Positions 21,854 through 30,246 of a DNA stretch of 64,000 bases are shown here, one piece after another. Position numbers and translations under genes: made by a program. The notes under the pieces are model-generated. The model ran no database searches. It saw only the letters and a program-made list of their open reading frames with translations, and was not told the origin of the DNA. Source of the DNA: Gemmatimonadota bacterium (GTDB lineage: Bacteria > Gemmatimonadota > Gemmatimonadetes > Longimicrobiales > Gaopeijiaceae); NCBI GenBank assembly GCA_009838975.1, contig VXQO01000113.1, positions 1 to 64,000 on the forward strand. The letters are read 5' to 3'. Within the stretch, counting starts at the first letter, position 1. Each line of letters begins with the position of its first letter.

Positions 21854-22956
21854 CAGGCCCGCGCGCTCCTGCCCCGCGCTTCGAGTGCGATTCGCCGCAG
21901 GGGTCCGCCCTCGCGCTCGAATCCCCACAGGTGGTCCTGCAGGTTGACGGACACGCAGACGTGGTTGGGCAGGATGCGGACGCGGTCGCCGACCGACGGG
22001 CGCCAGTCGGTGCGCGTGAGGTCGAGCATGCCGTGTTCCTCGTTGACGGCCTTGACGGTGACGTCCGGGCGGCCCAGCAGCACGCCGAGGCCGGAGGCGT
22101 CCGGGCCCAGGATTTCCCTGGAGATGGCCTTGGAGCCGGCGTCCACGACCGCCTGGCCAGGCACGGCGACGCTGATCACGGTGGCCAGCACCGAGTATGC
22201 GATGTCGTCGGACGCCGCCGCCCCCATGCCGACGATGTCGCGGTCGTTGTAGATGCAGGTGCCGGGGCGGACTTCGGTGAGCCCGGGGACGAGGTGCGAA
22301 TCCCACATGGTCGGTGTCGAGCCGCCGGAGACGATGCGGGCCGGGTGGCCGGCCTGTTCGAGCGCGGCGAGGAAGGTGTGGAGGCGGTCGGCCAGGCGGG
22401 CCAGGGCTTCCGGCTGTTCGCTCCGTGGCACGCGGATGCCGGGGTAGAACATGAGGCCGTCGAAACGTCCGCCGGGGAGCGAATCGGCGGCTTCCGCGAG
22501 CCGGATCGCGTCTTCGACCTCGACCACGCCCGTGCGCCCCGCCCCGGCATCGAATTCGACCAGGATTCCGAAGGTGCGTCCGGTGGCTGCCCCGGCCTTG
22601 CAGAGAGGTCGCAGGACTTCGATGGAATCGAGGCCGACCTTGATGTCGGCGGCGGCGGGCAACGCGCAGAGCCGCGCGATCTTGGAAGGGTGCGCGGGCG
22701 GGTGTGCGAGCAGGAGGTCGCCGGTCGCGTGGGCCATGACCTCGGCCTCGTGGGGCGTGGCGACGGTGAGCCCGACCGCCCCGCACTCGATCTGCAGCCG
22801 CGCCATCTCCAGCGACTTGTGCGTCTTGACGTGGGGCCGCCACGCGATCCCGTGCCGGCGGCAATAGGCCGCGGCCCGTTCCACGTTGCGGCGCGCCCTG
22901 GCGAGGTGGACGACGCCGACCGGAGTCTCGGCGGCGTGCAGTCCGGCCAGGGTCAT
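21853..22956 (-). CDS. D-threonine-aldolase-like / alanine-racemase-fold PLP enzyme
   Basis: RPHVKTHKSLEMARLQIECGAVGLTVATPHEAEVM, VSGGSTPTMWD, PNHVCVSVNL; start set at MTLAGLHAAE. Confidence 0.85.
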   Translation of the reverse strand: MTLAGLHAAETPVGVVHLARARRNVERAAAYCRRHGIAWRPHVKTHKSLEMARLQIECGAVGLTVATPHEAEVMAHATGDLLLAHPPAHPSKIARLCALPAAADIKVGLDSIEVLRPLCKAGAATGRTFGILVEFDAGAGRTGVVEVEDAIRLAEAADSLPGGRFDGLMFYPGIRVPRSEQPEALARLADRLHTFLAALEQAGHPARIVSGGSTPTMWDSHLVPGLTEVRPGTCIYNDRDIVGMGAAASDDIAYSVLATVISVAVPGQAVVDAGSKAISREILGPDASGLGVLLGRPDVTVKAVNEEHGMLDLTRTDWRPSVGDRVRILPNHVCVSVNLQDHLWGFEREGGPLRRIALEARGRSARA

Positions 22957-24296
22957 CCGGGCAGCTGCCACAGCGCCAGATCGAAGGTGGCAGTGCGCAC
23001 GCGTCCTTCTCCGTGCGGGTCGGTCCAGGCCAGCATCAACCGGTCGTCGCCGAGGCGCGCAATCCGCGGGAATCCCGAGGCGCGCGCGGCGTCGGTGTCC
23101 GCCATCGTCACGGGGTGGCTCATGGCGCCGTCCGTGGTGACCCTGCGGCTCATGATGGCGGCGCCCTGGCCGCTCCCGGCGCCTTCCGCCAGCCATGTCA
23201 CGAGCGCGGAGCCGTCGTCGAGCAGGGTGACGTCGACCCGGCCGAGCGCTTGTCCGGGGTCCAGCCGCATCGGGGGCCCGAAGCTCGCCGCGCCGTCCGA
23301 TGAGAAGGCGACGTTCACACGGGGTTTGTTGTCCGGGGCCGTGAACCATGCGATGGCGACGTCGGCGCCCTGCGCGGCCATCGCGGGACCGTTGACCGGG
23401 CAGCCGCCGAAGACCCAGCCGTCGTCGTGGACGGCCTGGCTCGGGGTCCAGGCCCCCTCAACCAGGCGGCTCACGTGGACGTCCCGGATCTCACCTTTGG
23501 CGCGGTCGCGATAGGCCAGCACGGGGACGCCGTCCGCGACCGCCGCGGCGGTCTGGCAGCACTCGCAGGTCATGGGGTCCACGATTGTCTCGAGGCCGGG
23601 TGGCGTGGCCGTGTGTGCGTTGCCGCCGGGGGGTGGTGCGCCGGGTCGCGTGGCGAGTGCGACCATGCGTGCGCGGAGCGACATGGGGCCGAAGGGCTCG
23701 ACCATCTCCCGCCCGTCCAGCCAGGCCGCCCAGACCTCGTCGCCACGTGGGAAGAACGACACGAACCCGTGTTCGGTGGGTGTTCCGTCCTCGTGTGGGG
23801 TTAGGGCGCGGGACCAGGTCGCGCCGCGGTCGTCCGACCAGGCCACGCGGACGCCGTAGTCGTACGTCCCCTGCCGCCCGCGCCACAGCCAGTGTGCGAA
23901 GAGGCGGTCGCCGAAGACCCTGACCGAGGGAAAATCGGCCCAGTTGACGAAGAACGCGTCGCCCTCGGCGACGGTCCTCGCGGGACCCCACTCGCCGTTC
24001 TGCGGGTCATGGAACGACACCACCACGCGGTGTCCCGCAGGCGACGGCTCGGTCCAGCTCATCCAGACGCCGTCGCCCGCCGGCTCCAGGAACGGCTGTC
24101 CCGAACCCGGGGCGGCCGGGCTGTCGAGTTCGACCGCGGGCAGAAGGCCCGGTGACTCTGCCGCCGCGGAGGCACCTGCCGTTCCCGGTGCTCCCCCGGC
24201 GTCTCCCGTGCACCCTGCGGCCGCAAGTGCGGCGACAGCCAGGGGCGACCAGTGCAATGACGGCGAGCGGGCTGCGTTTCCGGCTGCTGTGGTCAT
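22953..24296 (-). CDS. secreted BNR/sialidase-like beta-propeller lipoprotein
   Basis: LAVAALAAAGC lipobox; WSDDRGATWSRALTPHEDG and FSSDGAASFG propeller motifs. Confidence 0.78.
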   Translation of the reverse strand: MTTAAGNAARSPSLHWSPLAVAALAAAGCTGDAGGAPGTAGASAAAESPGLLPAVELDSPAAPGSGQPFLEPAGDGVWMSWTEPSPAGHRVVVSFHDPQNGEWGPARTVAEGDAFFVNWADFPSVRVFGDRLFAHWLWRGRQGTYDYGVRVAWSDDRGATWSRALTPHEDGTPTEHGFVSFFPRGDEVWAAWLDGREMVEPFGPMSLRARMVALATRPGAPPPGGNAHTATPPGLETIVDPMTCECCQTAAAVADGVPVLAYRDRAKGEIRDVHVSRLVEGAWTPSQAVHDDGWVFGGCPVNGPAMAAQGADVAIAWFTAPDNKPRVNVAFSSDGAASFGPPMRLDPGQALGRVDVTLLDDGSALVTWLAEGAGSGQGAAIMSRRVTTDGAMSHPVTMADTDAARASGFPRIARLGDDRLMLAWTDPHGEGRVRTATFDLALWQLPG

Positions 24297-24546
24297 GGCG
24301 CTCCCAAGTGTGTATTGTCCAGATAGCCGATTAGGAACATAAGCGCGCGCGTGTGAAGCGCGATGGCACGGCGAGCGGCGCGCTGCGGTAAGGATCCCTT
24401 GCGGGAACGTAGTGTATACCCGTGGCGAGACGGGTCGCGCACTCGGCTTGACCGTGCGCCGGCTAACGGAATCAAGACATAAGGCGGTCATGGCGGTGGG
24501 ACCTCACTCGCTCGCTCGACCGCTCATCAAGGGGAAGAGGTTGGTC

Positions 24547-27500
24547 ATGGCTGCATCGAAACGCACCATCCGGAACCGCGCCACCAGAGTCCTTCTGTCC
24601 GGGGCGGGAGTGATCGCCCTCCTGGCCAGCCTGCCCGCCTCGGGCTCCGCCCAGTACTTCGGGCGCAACAAGGTGCAGTACGATGGATTCGATTTCAAGG
24701 TCCTGAGCACCCAGAACTGGGACATCCACTACTACCCGCAGGCCGAGACCGCGATCGAGGACATCGCACGTCTGGCCGAGCGCTGGTACGAGCGCTTCTC
24801 CCGGGTCTTCCAGCACGACTTCGACACCCCGAAGCCGCTCATCATGTACGCCGACCACCCCGACTTCCAGCAGACCAACACGCTCGCCGGGGCGATCGGC
24901 CAGGGGACCGGGGGCGTGACGGAGTCGCTCAAGAACCGGGTGATCATGCCGCTCAACGCCTCCTACCGGGAGACGGACAGGATCCTGGGGCACGAGCTCG
25001 TCCACGCATTCCAGTACAACATCTCGCAGAGCCGCAGCGGCGGCGGGATCATGCGGCTGGCGGCCATGCCGCTGTGGATCGTGGAAGGGATGGCGGAGTA
25101 CATGTCGATGGGGCGGGAACACCCCCACACGGCCATGTGGCTCCGCGACCACATTCTGCGCGACGACAAGCCCACGCTGAAGGAGATCACCCGCGACCCG
25201 AAGTACTTCGCCTACCGGTTCGGACAGGGGTTCATCTCCTACATCGGCGGCACCTACGGGGACGAGGCGGTGCAGGACCTGTTCCGCACCGCGCTGAGGA
25301 CCGGGTGGGAGGCCGCGATCGGACAGGTCTTCGCGATGCCCGAGGACACGCTCGCGATGGAGTGGTGGGACGCCATCGAGGCGGAATACAGGCCGCTCAT
25401 GGCGGGCAAGAGCGATCCGTACGAGACGGGCGATGTCCTGCTGTGCGTGGAGTGCGGAGGAGGGCGGACCAACGTCGCGCCGTCGCTGAGCCCGGACGGT
25501 CGCTACATCGTCTTCCAGTCCGAGAAGGACCTCTTCTCGATGGACCTGTTCCTGGCCGACGTCATGACCGGTGAGATCCTTCGTCCGCTGCAGCGCAACG
25601 AAACCCCGTACATCGACGGGATCCGCTATATCGACAGCAGCGGCTCCTGGTCGCCCGACAGCCGCAAGCTCGCTTTCGTGATCTTCTCGGGCGGGGACAA
25701 TCAGCTGGCCATTCTCGATGTCCAGAGCGGCCGGATCGAGGATCGCATCGAGATCGAGGGTCTGGGCGCGATCCAGAACCCCGCGTGGTCGCCCGACGGC
25801 CGACGGATCGCCTTCACCGGGCTGAGGGGCGGGATCAGCGACCTGTACCTCTACGACTTCGACGGCGGGACCGTACAGCAGCTGACGAACGACAGGCACG
25901 CCGACCTGCAGGCCGCCTGGTCGCCCGACGGAGGGACGCTGGCCTTCGTCTCCGACCGGGGCGCCGACACCAACTTCGACGAACTGGTCTTCGGCAACTA
26001 CGTGCTCGCGTTCATGAACCTGGATACGCGGGTCGTGGAGCCGCTGACGGTCTTCGACAACGCCAAGCACATCAACCCGATCTTCGACCGGACCGGCGAA
26101 GGCATCTACTTCATCTCGGACCCCGATGGCTTCTCGGACATCTTCCATCTGAACCTGAGCGACGGCGAGATGCGGAGGATCACCCGTGCGGTCACGGGGG
26201 TCAGCGGCATCACGGCGCTCTCGCCGGCGCTGACGTACTCTCCGGCGCAGGACCTGCTGGCCTTTTCCGTCTTCCACGAGCGCGGGTACATCGTGAACAC
26301 GGGCCGGGCCGGCGACATGGCGACACTGGTGGACGTGGTCGCTCACGCCGGGCCGCACCCGGGCCGCCTGCTGCCGCCGGGGTCCCCCAGGATCCGGAGC
26401 CGGGTCGCCGGCTACCTGGCGGACCCCCTCACGGGACTGGTTTCCGACCAGGTGTACACGGGCGACCAGGCCGAGGACTACGATCCTTCGCTGCAGCTCG
26501 ACTACGTCGGGCAGCCTTCGGTCGGAGTCGGTGCCGACACCTACGGCTCGTACGTGGGAGGCAGCACCTACGCGTACTTCAGCGACATGCTGGGCGACCG
26601 GTTCCTCGGTGTGTCGCTGTTGGCGAACGGAACCTTGAAGGACATCGGCGGAGCTGCTTCCTACCTCAACCAGGAGAACCGGTGGAACTGGGGTGTGGGC
26701 ATACAGCACATCCCCTATCTGCAGCGCTTCTTCGGTTTCGGTTTCGACCAGTTCGAGGTCTACAACCAGCGCTTCTTCATAGACGCCGTGCAAGGCATAC
26801 TGTCGTATCCGCTCTCGGCCACCCGTCGGCTGGAGGGAGGCCTGGGCGCGACCAGGTACGGGTTCGACCTCGAGAGAGAGGTGTACTACACGGATGTCTT
26901 CCAGCGCATCGTCGGCTTCGAGCGCTTCCAGGAGGAGTGGAGGGATCCGCTGTACTTCGCTTCCGCTTCCCTGGCGTTCGTCGGCGACAACTCGTACCGC
27001 GCGTGGACCAGCCCGGTCAGGGGTGAGCGCTTCCGGTTCGGGGCCGAGGTGTCCTACGGGACCGTCAACTTCAACACGGTCACCGCCGACTACCGCCGCT
27101 ACTTCAACGGCGGCGGTGCGCTGACGCTCGCCGTGCGGGGCCTGCACCTCGGGCGCTACGGCGACATTCGGGGGCTGGACGAGCAGCAGCTCGGCCCCTA
27201 CTTCATGGGCTTCGAGAACTTCGTCCGCGGATACGACTGGAACTCCTTCGACAGCCGCGAATGCCCCGAGAACACGAGGATCACGATCACCGGCTCCACG
27301 TGTCCGCCCATCGATCGCCTGTACGGGCACCGGCTCGGGGTGTTCAACATCGAATTCCGGCTGCCGTTCACGGGCATCGAGGAGTTCGGGATCATCAACT
27401 TCCCGTACATCCCCGTGGAACTGACCGCCTTCACCGACGTGGGCTTCGCGTGGGACGAGGAGCGGCCCGGTGAGCTGGTGTGGGCCCGCAACACGGCGGA

Positions 27501-27642
27501 CCGGGTCCCTATTGCGAGCAGCGGCTTCTCGGCACGGATGAACCTGTTGGGTTACCTGATCCTGGAAGCCTACTACGCGTACCCGTGGCAGCGTCCGCTG
27601 AAGGGGTGGCACTGGGGCTTCCACGTGGCGCCGGGGTGGTAG
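24547..27642 (+). CDS. multidomain outer-membrane protein: MA-clan metallopeptidase-like + TolB-like propeller + Omp85-like barrel
   Basis: HELVHAFQY with downstream WIVEGMAEYMS; WSPDGRRIAF/WSPDSRKLAF/WSPDGGTLAF PD40 repeats; C-terminal ENFVRGY, FNIEFRLPF and AFTDVGFAW. Confidence 0.8.
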   Translation: MAASKRTIRNRATRVLLSGAGVIALLASLPASGSAQYFGRNKVQYDGFDFKVLSTQNWDIHYYPQAETAIEDIARLAERWYERFSRVFQHDFDTPKPLIMYADHPDFQQTNTLAGAIGQGTGGVTESLKNRVIMPLNASYRETDRILGHELVHAFQYNISQSRSGGGIMRLAAMPLWIVEGMAEYMSMGREHPHTAMWLRDHILRDDKPTLKEITRDPKYFAYRFGQGFISYIGGTYGDEAVQDLFRTALRTGWEAAIGQVFAMPEDTLAMEWWDAIEAEYRPLMAGKSDPYETGDVLLCVECGGGRTNVAPSLSPDGRYIVFQSEKDLFSMDLFLADVMTGEILRPLQRNETPYIDGIRYIDSSGSWSPDSRKLAFVIFSGGDNQLAILDVQSGRIEDRIEIEGLGAIQNPAWSPDGRRIAFTGLRGGISDLYLYDFDGGTVQQLTNDRHADLQAAWSPDGGTLAFVSDRGADTNFDELVFGNYVLAFMNLDTRVVEPLTVFDNAKHINPIFDRTGEGIYFISDPDGFSDIFHLNLSDGEMRRITRAVTGVSGITALSPALTYSPAQDLLAFSVFHERGYIVNTGRAGDMATLVDVVAHAGPHPGRLLPPGSPRIRSRVAGYLADPLTGLVSDQVYTGDQAEDYDPSLQLDYVGQPSVGVGADTYGSYVGGSTYAYFSDMLGDRFLGVSLLANGTLKDIGGAASYLNQENRWNWGVGIQHIPYLQRFFGFGFDQFEVYNQRFFIDAVQGILSYPLSATRRLEGGLGATRYGFDLEREVYYTDVFQRIVGFERFQEEWRDPLYFASASLAFVGDNSYRAWTSPVRGERFRFGAEVSYGTVNFNTVTADYRRYFNGGGALTLAVRGLHLGRYGDIRGLDEQQLGPYFMGFENFVRGYDWNSFDSRECPENTRITITGSTCPPIDRLYGHRLGVFNIEFRLPFTGIEEFGIINFPYIPVELTAFTDVGFAWDEERPGELVWARNTADRVPIASSGFSARMNLLGYLILEAYYAYPWQRPLKGWHWGFHVAPGW

Positions 27643-27660
27643 CACCCTCCCGCCTGTAGC

Positions 27661-27708: not shown

Positions 27709-28659
27709 TCAGAAGATCTCGATCGTCACGTAGCGGCCGGGGTTCTCCCGGATGTCGTCCAGGAGTTCCTCCAGACTCTGCAGCGTTGAATTCACCGATG
27801 TGTGGAGTTCGTCGGTCGTCAGGAGCTTGCCCAACGTGCCTTCGCCGCGTTCGAGACGCCCCAGAACCGTGTTGAGAGAGCCGACCGATTCGTTGACGGT
27901 GGCGGACGTGCGCTGCAGGGACGCCATCGTGTTCTCGGCCGAGACGAGCGTAGCGTTCCATTCCTCGGAGCCCGTGATGCCCTCCATGTTCGCCGCCGAG
28001 CGCTGCAGGCTCTCCATCAGGGTCCGGAACTCGGCCTCCTGGCCGTCCGCGACCGCAGCGAGATCCGCCATCAACTCCCGCATGGAAGACATTAGGGCGC
28101 CCACGTCCGATATCGTCGAGTCCGACAGCAGCCCCTGCACCTGGCCCATCACGTCGGAGACATCGCCCGCCAGATCGCCCGCCTGGTCGAGTACCCCGCC
28201 GGCCGAGGTTCCGGGTATGATCTCCCCCGGCTCGACGTATTCGTCGCTGTCACCCGGGATCACCGAAACCACCATCCCGCCCAGGAATCCCATGGACAGC
28301 AGTTCCGTGCTGGCCTCGGCGGGGATGCGGTATTCGCCCTCGAGTTCCATGGTGATTTGCACGCCTCCGCCGGGGGCAAGGTCGAACCCATAGACCCGCC
28401 CGATGTTGATCCCGCGCATCCGCACCGGGTCCCCACGGCGAATCCCTCCGGCGTCCGCGACCTCCGTCACGAGCATGTAGCGGCCCCGGAAGAGCGCCGG
28501 ACTGGTCATGAGGAAGAGAACGGTGAAAAAGCCTACGATTCCGAGGATCACGAAGATCCCCACCCGAAATTCCCGTATCCCCGAAAGGGGCGGAACGGCG
28601 CGCAGGACTTCCTCGTCGGAGAGCCGCCGGCTGCCGCTCGCTGATACCGCGTCGTTCAT
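27709..28659 (-). CDS. MlaD-family (MCE domain) substrate-binding protein
   Basis: single N-terminal TM, GRYMLVTEVADAGGIRRGDPVRMRGINIGRV MCE motif, long helical C-terminus. Confidence 0.88.
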   Translation of the reverse strand: MNDAVSASGSRRLSDEEVLRAVPPLSGIREFRVGIFVILGIVGFFTVLFLMTSPALFRGRYMLVTEVADAGGIRRGDPVRMRGINIGRVYGFDLAPGGGVQITMELEGEYRIPAEASTELLSMGFLGGMVVSVIPGDSDEYVEPGEIIPGTSAGGVLDQAGDLAGDVSDVMGQVQGLLSDSTISDVGALMSSMRELMADLAAVADGQEAEFRTLMESLQRSAANMEGITGSEEWNATLVSAENTMASLQRTSATVNESVGSLNTVLGRLERGEGTLGKLLTTDELHTSVNSTLQSLEELLDDIRENPGRYVTIEIF

Positions 28660-29438
28660 GTCATCTCCACAACGTCGAGTGCGGCCTCGGCGGCCGCTCG
28701 ATCCACGAATGCTCTTACCACCGGGTCGGACTCCGTCTGGAATTCGTTCGGCGTTCCACAGAAGCGAATGACTCCGCCTTCCAGCATGGCCACGCGGTCG
28801 CACATCCAGAGCGCGCCCTCCACGTCGTGGGTGACCAGCACGGAAGTGACCTTCAACTCTTCCGCGAGCCCCTTGATCAGGCGTTCGACCGCGGCCGTGT
28901 TGACGGGATCGAGACCGGTGGTGGGCTCGTCCCAGAGCAGGATTCCGGGGCGCCCCACGATGGCGCGCGCGATCCCGACCCTCTTCTTCATACCGCCCGA
29001 CAGTTCGGCGGGGAGGATCGACAGGACCTCCGCCGGTTCGAGATTTACGAGTTCCAATGCCGTGCAGACGGCCCGCGCCACGCCCGCAGCCCCCATGCGC
29101 CGAATGCGGTCGACGGGCAGGCCCGTCTCGACGTTTCGAAACACGTTGAGCGAATCGAAGAGCGCCGCCTGCTGAAAGACGTACCCCACCTGCCGCCTGA
29201 CGGTATCCTTGGCCCCGTCGCCGCCGAAGAACACCGACGTACCGTTGACCTCGACGTCGCCACGGTCGGGCACCACCAGTCCGATGGTGGTCTTGAGGAG
29301 GACGCTCTTGCCGGTGCCGGACGGACCGAAGAGCGCGAACATCTCGCCCTCATGGATCTCGAGGTTGACGCCCGTCAGGACCGGGCGCTTGTAGGCCTTC
29401 CAGGTGTTGCGGTAGCGGATGACGGGACGAGGAGTCAT
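28656..29438 (-). CDS. MlaF-type ABC transporter ATP-binding protein
   Basis: Walker A GPSGTGKS, LSGGMKKRVGIARAI signature, LLWDEPTTGLDPV. Confidence 0.92.
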   Translation of the reverse strand: MTPRPVIRYRNTWKAYKRPVLTGVNLEIHEGEMFALFGPSGTGKSVLLKTTIGLVVPDRGDVEVNGTSVFFGGDGAKDTVRRQVGYVFQQAALFDSLNVFRNVETGLPVDRIRRMGAAGVARAVCTALELVNLEPAEVLSILPAELSGGMKKRVGIARAIVGRPGILLWDEPTTGLDPVNTAAVERLIKGLAEELKVTSVLVTHDVEGALWMCDRVAMLEGGVIRFCGTPNEFQTESDPVVRAFVDRAAAEAALDVVEMT

Positions 29439-29454
29439 CGGGCGGCTCGGGCGG

Positions 29455-30246
29455 TCAGTTGAGGAAGAGCGGGGGGAACAGTGCGTCGAGGATCAATATG
29501 GTCAGGGTCTGGAACATGACCGATGCCGTCGTCGTGCTCCCCACACCTTCGGCGCCTCCTCTCGTGCGGAATCCCATGTGAATGGCGATCGCGGGGATCG
29601 CGAGACCGAAGGTGACGGCCTTCATGAACGAATACCAGAGGTCCCACGAGTGCCAGAAGAGGCGCGCGCCATAGAGGAAGGTCTCGAAGCCGAGGTCGAG
29701 GGTGAGGTAGGCTGCGACCATGCCGGAGAGGATGCCCACGGTGTTGGCCAGCCCAACCAGAAGGGGCATGACGACGAGCCCGGCCAGGATCCGCGGCGCG
29801 CCGAGCATGATCTGGGGATCGCGACCCAGTGAGCGGTATGCGTCGATCTGCTCGGAAACGACCATGGTGCCGAGTTCGGCGGTGATGCGCGCCCCGACCC
29901 TGCCGACCAGCACCACGGCCGTCAGCACGGGGCCCAGCTCCAGCACGACGCTCGTGACGGTTACGCTGCCCAGCACGTACAGCGGGATGGTGGCGGTGAA
30001 CTGGTAACCCCCCTGCTGGGAGGTCACGATCCCGGTGAGCACGGCCGTGATCAGGACGATCGGGATGCTTTGTACGCCCATCACGTACATCTGGCGGACG
30101 AATTCGTTCCCCGAGACCCGCAGCCGGACGGTCGCGACAAGTGTGCGCCCGAGCAACAGCCCCAACTGCCCCGCGTGCTCGGCCCAGAGTTGCCACCACC
30201 GGCCGACCGCCCTGAACGGGCGCTCGTGGAAGGGAATGCCCCTCAA
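29455..30246 (-). CDS. MlaE-type ABC transporter permease
   Basis: ELGPVLTAVVLVGRVGARITAELGTMVVSEQIDAYRSLGRDP; TTG start overlapping the upstream stop. Confidence 0.92.
   Translation of the reverse strand: MRGIPFHERPFRAVGRWWQLWAEHAGQLGLLLGRTLVATVRLRVSGNEFVRQMYVMGVQSIPIVLITAVLTGIVTSQQGGYQFTATIPLYVLGSVTVTSVVLELGPVLTAVVLVGRVGARITAELGTMVVSEQIDAYRSLGRDPQIMLGAPRILAGLVVMPLLVGLANTVGILSGMVAAYLTLDLGFETFLYGARLFWHSWDLWYSFMKAVTFGLAIPAIAIHMGFRTRGGAEGVGSTTTASVMFQTLTILILDALFPPLFLN

Follow-up and report, generated by a model that had tools for sequence, protein, structure and literature searches.

The window (the whole stretch analysed, 64,000 nucleotides of a Gemmatimonadota bacterium, contig VXQO01000113.1) carries on its plus strand, at 24547..27642, the gene for a 1031-amino-acid peptidase-propeller-Omp85 protein, with its stop codon at 27640-27642. 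Full-length homologues and a survey of the phylum support the gene. The initial annotation had picked out this reading frame, and all motifs that it quoted from the frame are present in the sequence. The signal-like N-terminus reads as a Sec signal peptide of residues 1-35 (24547..24651, plus strand), with probable cleavage at SGSA/QYFG and no lipobox cysteine. The A-QYFG cleavage pattern is repeated in the full-length homologues, and residues 1-36 have a pLDDT below 50 in the AlphaFold2 model. Since the homologues start with a signal peptide ending in A/QYFG, the ATG at 24547 is a better start than an upstream GTG at 24412, which could open a longer ORF. An antisense open frame of 1057 amino acids (24472-27645, minus strand) overlaps the gene and is probably a by-product of high G+C content. 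A gene-calling artefact, with this minus-strand ORF as the gene instead, was ruled out by protein-level homologues and by the AlphaFold2 model, both of which support the plus strand.

Residues ~36-290 (24652..25416, plus strand) form a gluzincin (MA-clan) zinc peptidase domain, as judged from BSP and Peptidase_MA_2 matches, a collagenase match and secondary structure. The zinc-binding motif HELVH (residues 149-153; 24991..25005, plus strand) starts exactly where it had been reported. The second reported motif, WIVEGMAEY, is real, but it starts at 25075 instead of about 25078 (WIVEGMAE, residues 177-184; 25075..25098, plus strand); its E180 is the probable third zinc ligand. H149, E150, H153, E180 and G181 were present in all 118 homologues compared, as were R131, Y223 and G226, and E184 was found in 117/118. 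In the AlphaFold2 model, HExxH lies on helix 140-161 and E180 on helix 176-188, which is the layout expected of gluzincins; the gluzincin reading of the initial annotation stands, with HExxH and the downstream glutamate invariant and both on predicted helices. The invariance of H149, H153, E180 and the catalytic E150, together with that of R131, Y223 and G226, points to an enzyme under purifying selection, and we infer that the domain is very probably catalytically active.

Profile searches place this domain at some distance from known families. With Pfam, the window protein alone gave only BSP and DUF6055, both below threshold. When the 39 full-length homologues were scanned singly, BSP was found in 34 and Peptidase_MA_2 (PF13485) in seven; for the latter, one relative (L205) scored 51.2 bits against a cut-off of 32.4, whereas the window protein remained below the cut-off. 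The only notable match of a peptidase profile among PDB sequences was to a microbial collagenase (E 0.0019), and it covered the HExxH and EG motifs. The domain thus shares the HExxH, W..EGxAEY and YRxG layout with the Peptidase_MA_2, BSP and M9 collagenase group, but its scores are mostly below the curated cut-offs. On these sequence comparisons, we regard it as a divergent gluzincin subfamily.

The peptidase is followed by a TolB-type beta-propeller of PD40 blades (residues ~291-587; 25417..26307, plus strand), the strands of which span residues ~296-586 of the AlphaFold2 model. PD40 was detected in the window protein alone (2.9e-25) and in 39/39 full-length homologues, and TolB was the best PDB match in Foldseek (E 6e-13), in agreement with the propeller described earlier. 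The TIGR02800 score (123.6 bits) is, however, far under the cut-off of 343, and identity as TolB was ruled out by a separate TolB-like protein elsewhere in the same genome. PD40/TolB-like propeller proteins are abundant in this genome, with 111 TIGR02800 matches on many contigs (e.g. G000:C42:86522-100605). A linker of residues 588-649 (26308..26493, plus strand; LPPG..YLxDPxTGL..LDYxGQPSxGVG) connects propeller and barrel; it is conserved in the alignment and modelled with pLDDT values of mostly 80-95.

The C-terminal third (residues 650-1031; 26494..27639, plus strand) is an Omp85-type barrel, comprising a hairpin (650-664), 16 strands (667-1029) and a C-terminal tryptophan. Modelled alone, the barrel reached a pLDDT of 85.7, and its top PDB matches in Foldseek were all BamA or TamA (E ~1e-10; TM ~0.6 to BamA barrels), which bears out the 16-strand barrel that the initial annotation had suggested looking for. 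A 56-residue loop (27163..27330, plus strand) joins strands 11 and 12, where Omp85 proteins have L6; it contains VRGY at 27223-27234, of which R894 was found in 117/118 and G895 in 118/118 homologues. The reading of VRGY as the Omp85 L6 motif is thus upheld; the longer motif ENFVRGY exists as reported, but it occupies 27214-27234 instead of about 27211-27234. FNIEFRLPF and AFTDVGFAW, described as flanking strands, both follow it. FTDVGFAW (residues 962-969; 27430..27453, plus strand) lies on barrel strand 13, with F962 in 114, D964 in 118 and W969 in 108 of the 118 homologues, and E936 and R938 are also invariant (118/118).

To our knowledge, Omp85 proteins are universal outer-membrane assembly and transport barrels, and the characterized ones carry POTRA. 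Pfam did not detect Omp85 (PF01103) in the window protein on its own; scanned singly, 13 of the 39 homologues matched this family (best E 1.4e-14). As the initial annotation had noted, POTRA is absent: it is not among the 25 Pfam families listed for the 39 homologues, although the same library detects POTRA in this genome's BamA. POTRA is usual but not universal in the Omp85 superfamily, and the fusion protein is an Omp85 barrel without it. Identity as BamA was ruled out by the lack of POTRA and of a BamA model match, and by the canonical BamA with a POTRA array encoded elsewhere in the genome (TIGR03303, 399 bits). The genome also encodes a second POTRA-Omp85 protein and a weak third Omp85 match. 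Given this separate BamA, the second POTRA-Omp85 protein and the separate TolB-like protein, the fusion protein is an additional part.

The whole chain, modelled by AlphaFold2 from an alignment of the 39 full-length homologues, had a mean pLDDT of 87.3 and a pTM of 0.85; in Foldseek, TolB ranked first and the BamA barrel was also matched. Conservation among homologues and the predicted fold rule out a chance motif. We conclude that a single chain comprises a signal peptide, a gluzincin-type peptidase, a TolB-type propeller and an Omp85-type 16-strand barrel. In single-protein Pfam scans the propeller is clear, the peptidase weak and the barrel absent, and routine annotation may therefore miss two of the three domains.

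The fusion protein is widespread. In a survey of Gemmatimonadota, its N-terminal third matched 298 of 300 sampled genomes, and 118 of 121 were matched by its C-terminal third; most matches lay in open frames of ~1030-1250 residues, and many genomes carried multiple paralogues. A scan using one genome per species yielded more than 500 relatives, of which 80 were kept. Their record titles name Gemmatimonadetes/Gemmatimonadota, Glassbacteria, Eisenbacteria, Latescibacterota, Calditrichia, Acidobacteria, Aminicenantes, Vicinamibacterales, Rhodothermales/Bacteroidetes (with Longimonas halophila KCTC 42399 as a named strain), Elusimicrobia and, under one label, Clostridiales. All complete-gene loci among the 80 had peptidase, propeller and barrel, and barrel-less loci ended at a contig end or at runs of N. 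Apparent domain loss in some genomes was traced to assembly faults or contig ends (a run of N in G075; N runs and a frame break in L162). Viral contigs gave no match to the fusion protein, and a viral origin was ruled out on this basis.

The same domain order, with HExxH seen by inspection, was found in deep paralogues of Gemmatimonadota, Calditrichota, Acidobacteriota and Elusimicrobia. A second, deeply diverged peptidase-propeller-Omp85 type of ~950-1030 amino acids with an LRGYP motif (L171-L176, L197) occurs beside the first type in several genomes. Two genomes of the same genus (G053, G098) lack the main type and carry a remote third type with peptidase and propeller (L206 and L207, respectively). 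A home-made barrel profile matched neither protein; Pfam called Omp85 in L207 (2.8e-5), and in L206 a barrel is suggested by RGY and FxDxGxxW motifs only.

The survey of homologues proposed in the initial annotation showed that HExxH and the barrel RG are co-conserved: HExxH and the third glutamate are invariant, and the barrel RG pair is nearly so (117/118 and 118/118). Neither of the outcomes that the initial annotation had named as refuting its idea, a missing barrel or an unconserved HExxH, was observed. Peptidase and barrel trees were strongly correlated (Mantel r 0.87, against at most 0.18 in 500 permutations) and had 39 of 64 strongly supported splits in common, while eight strong peptidase splits conflicted with the barrel tree. 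This agreement indicates that the fusion is old and was passed on as a unit, and it rules out a recent fusion.

In the window the gene is solitary. Upstream lies a divergent gene of 512 amino acids (22953-24491, minus strand) without a Pfam match at 1e-5, and downstream a convergent MlaD/ABC-transporter (MCE) operon (27709-30246, minus strand), the first gene of which is at the same place in seven relatives. In another lineage the fusion gene lies 3' of rpsF-rpsR-rplI (rplI in 29 loci), and next to it is a gene for a SPOR-domain protein of the peptidoglycan-binding type (29/70 loci), often followed by a second SPOR protein and smc. Such SPOR-domain protein pairs between fusion gene and smc were seen, for example, at L126:9276-11980 and L095:9454-11861. 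The SPOR/ribosomal neighbours of one lineage and the convergent Mla neighbours of the other are synteny blocks and not independent associations, and no general operon partner was found. These neighbours place the fusion gene among housekeeping and cell-wall genes.

A full-text search of the open-access literature found no description of a peptidase-propeller-Omp85 architecture. One Omp85 subfamily with an enzyme domain involves PF00149, which we take to be the calcineurin-like metallophosphoesterase family, not a peptidase and unrelated to HExxH gluzincins. In the main text of Heinz and Lithgow (2014, PMC4104836), this subfamily is named 'Metallo' and PF00149 is called a metalloprotease domain; like our protein, it joins an enzyme domain that depends on metal to an Omp85 barrel. 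That text accepts non-POTRA Omp85 subfamilies, among them a WD40-Omp85 subfamily with an N-terminal TolB-like propeller directly before the barrel, as in the fusion protein, for which a BamA-BamB-like platform is suggested. A peptidase is not mentioned there, and the minor subfamilies are called sporadic and probably horizontally spread (PMC4104836, main text), in contrast to the near-universal presence of the three-domain fusion in one phylum. Going by this description, the three-domain proteins probably overlap the WD40-Omp85 subfamily, and the two may be identical, with the peptidase unremarked. Three points appear to be new: the conservation of a zinc peptidase, the occurrence of the fusion in almost every sampled genome of one phylum, and its spread across several phyla.

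Two characterized proteins bear on function. PlpD, the type Vd prototype, likewise carries an enzyme in front of an Omp85 barrel on a single chain, but this enzyme is a patatin lipase, and PlpD has POTRA and lacks a propeller. Hanson et al. (2024, PMC11116518) showed that its patatin domain does not leave the periplasm. BepA of E. coli, a zinc peptidase, acts on LptD and BamA as they are being assembled at BAM (PMC8423444). Like the fusion protein, if the latter is indeed periplasmic, it combines a periplasmic HExxH peptidase with a protein-binding repeat domain at an Omp85 machine. It differs in being an M48 peptidase with a TPR domain and without a barrel, whereas the fusion protein has another type of gluzincin, a propeller and its own barrel. 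By analogy, BepA would be the nearest functional parallel, joined here with a BamB/TolB-like propeller and a BamA/TamA-like barrel.

The best overall explanation, which we regard as evenly poised between right and wrong, is an outer-membrane-anchored periplasmic zinc endopeptidase that handles substrates at its Omp85 barrel. The chain would be exported by Sec and its C-terminal barrel folded into the outer membrane by BAM; on the periplasmic side, the propeller and the gluzincin domain would take the position of POTRA. The propeller might recruit or gate polypeptides, the barrel might offer outer-membrane or exported proteins a place to dock or assemble, and those that stall might be trimmed or destroyed by the peptidase; one chain would unite what BepA does as a peptidase, BamB/TolB as a propeller and BamA/TamA as a barrel. 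In a barrel with an even number of strands, here 16, and an aromatic residue at its C-terminus, both termini, and hence N-terminal domains, lie in the periplasm by default. This topology and the periplasmic enzyme domain of PlpD favour a periplasmic membrane-anchored peptidase, and we consider it likely that peptidase and propeller face the periplasm. A role in quality control or processing, for which BepA offers a precedent, is plausible but falls slightly short of an even chance. The multiple paralogues in many genomes are compatible with a part in secretion or nutrient use as well, which counts against this explanation, and PlpD raises the possibility that an Omp85 barrel need not do insertase work.

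The initial annotation had instead suggested that the protein could be a self-displaying protease, comparable to type Vd secretion but with a peptidase; on such a reading, the barrel would export peptidase and propeller to the cell surface, to act on external substrates. FhaC, an Omp85 relative, does translocate proteins; the peptidase resembles collagenase and flagellinolysin, which are secreted enzymes; and the multiple paralogues in many genomes would suit such a role. The precedent nevertheless fails, because the enzyme domain of the type Vd prototype proved, in work of 2024, to remain in the periplasm (PMC11116518). The would-be passenger, moreover, is a compact folded peptidase and propeller, and passage of these ~550 residues through a 16-strand barrel would have to proceed without ATP. 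Classical autotransporters move beta-helical passengers, unlike this one. Near-universality in the phylum (298/300) is more in keeping with a housekeeping protein than with a surface weapon for a particular niche, and retention in nearly all sampled genomes of the phylum and in several further phyla, with the active site intact, argues that the protein is probably a built-in periplasmic protease and not a self-secreted surface enzyme. We find self-display unsupported and think it improbable.

It is unlikely, if slightly less so, that the barrel moves clients across or into the outer membrane while the peptidase clips pro- or signal segments en route. The peptidase-Omp85 barrel fusion in almost every sufficiently complete member examined, and the retained RG and DxG motifs of the barrel, would agree with such a processing translocase, but the fusion gene is usually solitary or beside housekeeping genes, with no linked conserved client gene, and there is no POTRA for client reception. 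Less probable than either is a BamA-BamB-like assembly scaffold with a peptidase-like domain that only binds. The platform suggested for propeller-Omp85 proteins in the main text of Heinz and Lithgow (PMC4104836) speaks for it; against it, all four zinc-site residues are invariant in 118/118, whereas a domain with binding as its sole task should have lost some of them.

We tentatively propose, as a possibility that is less likely than the periplasmic endopeptidase reading in general, that the protein is a protease-insertase in one chain, in which metallopeptidase and propeller replace POTRA, and that it represents a large undescribed Omp85 subfamily and a near-universal envelope part of Gemmatimonadota and related phyla for OMP quality control or maturation. 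PlpD had raised the question whether Omp85 barrels that carry a fused enzyme serve as machines or as anchors, and the fusion offers a clean way to test it. If true, a near-universal multi-phylum subfamily with a protease and a TolB-type propeller instead of POTRA would mean that these little-studied phyla have their own way of coupling OMP handling to proteolysis.
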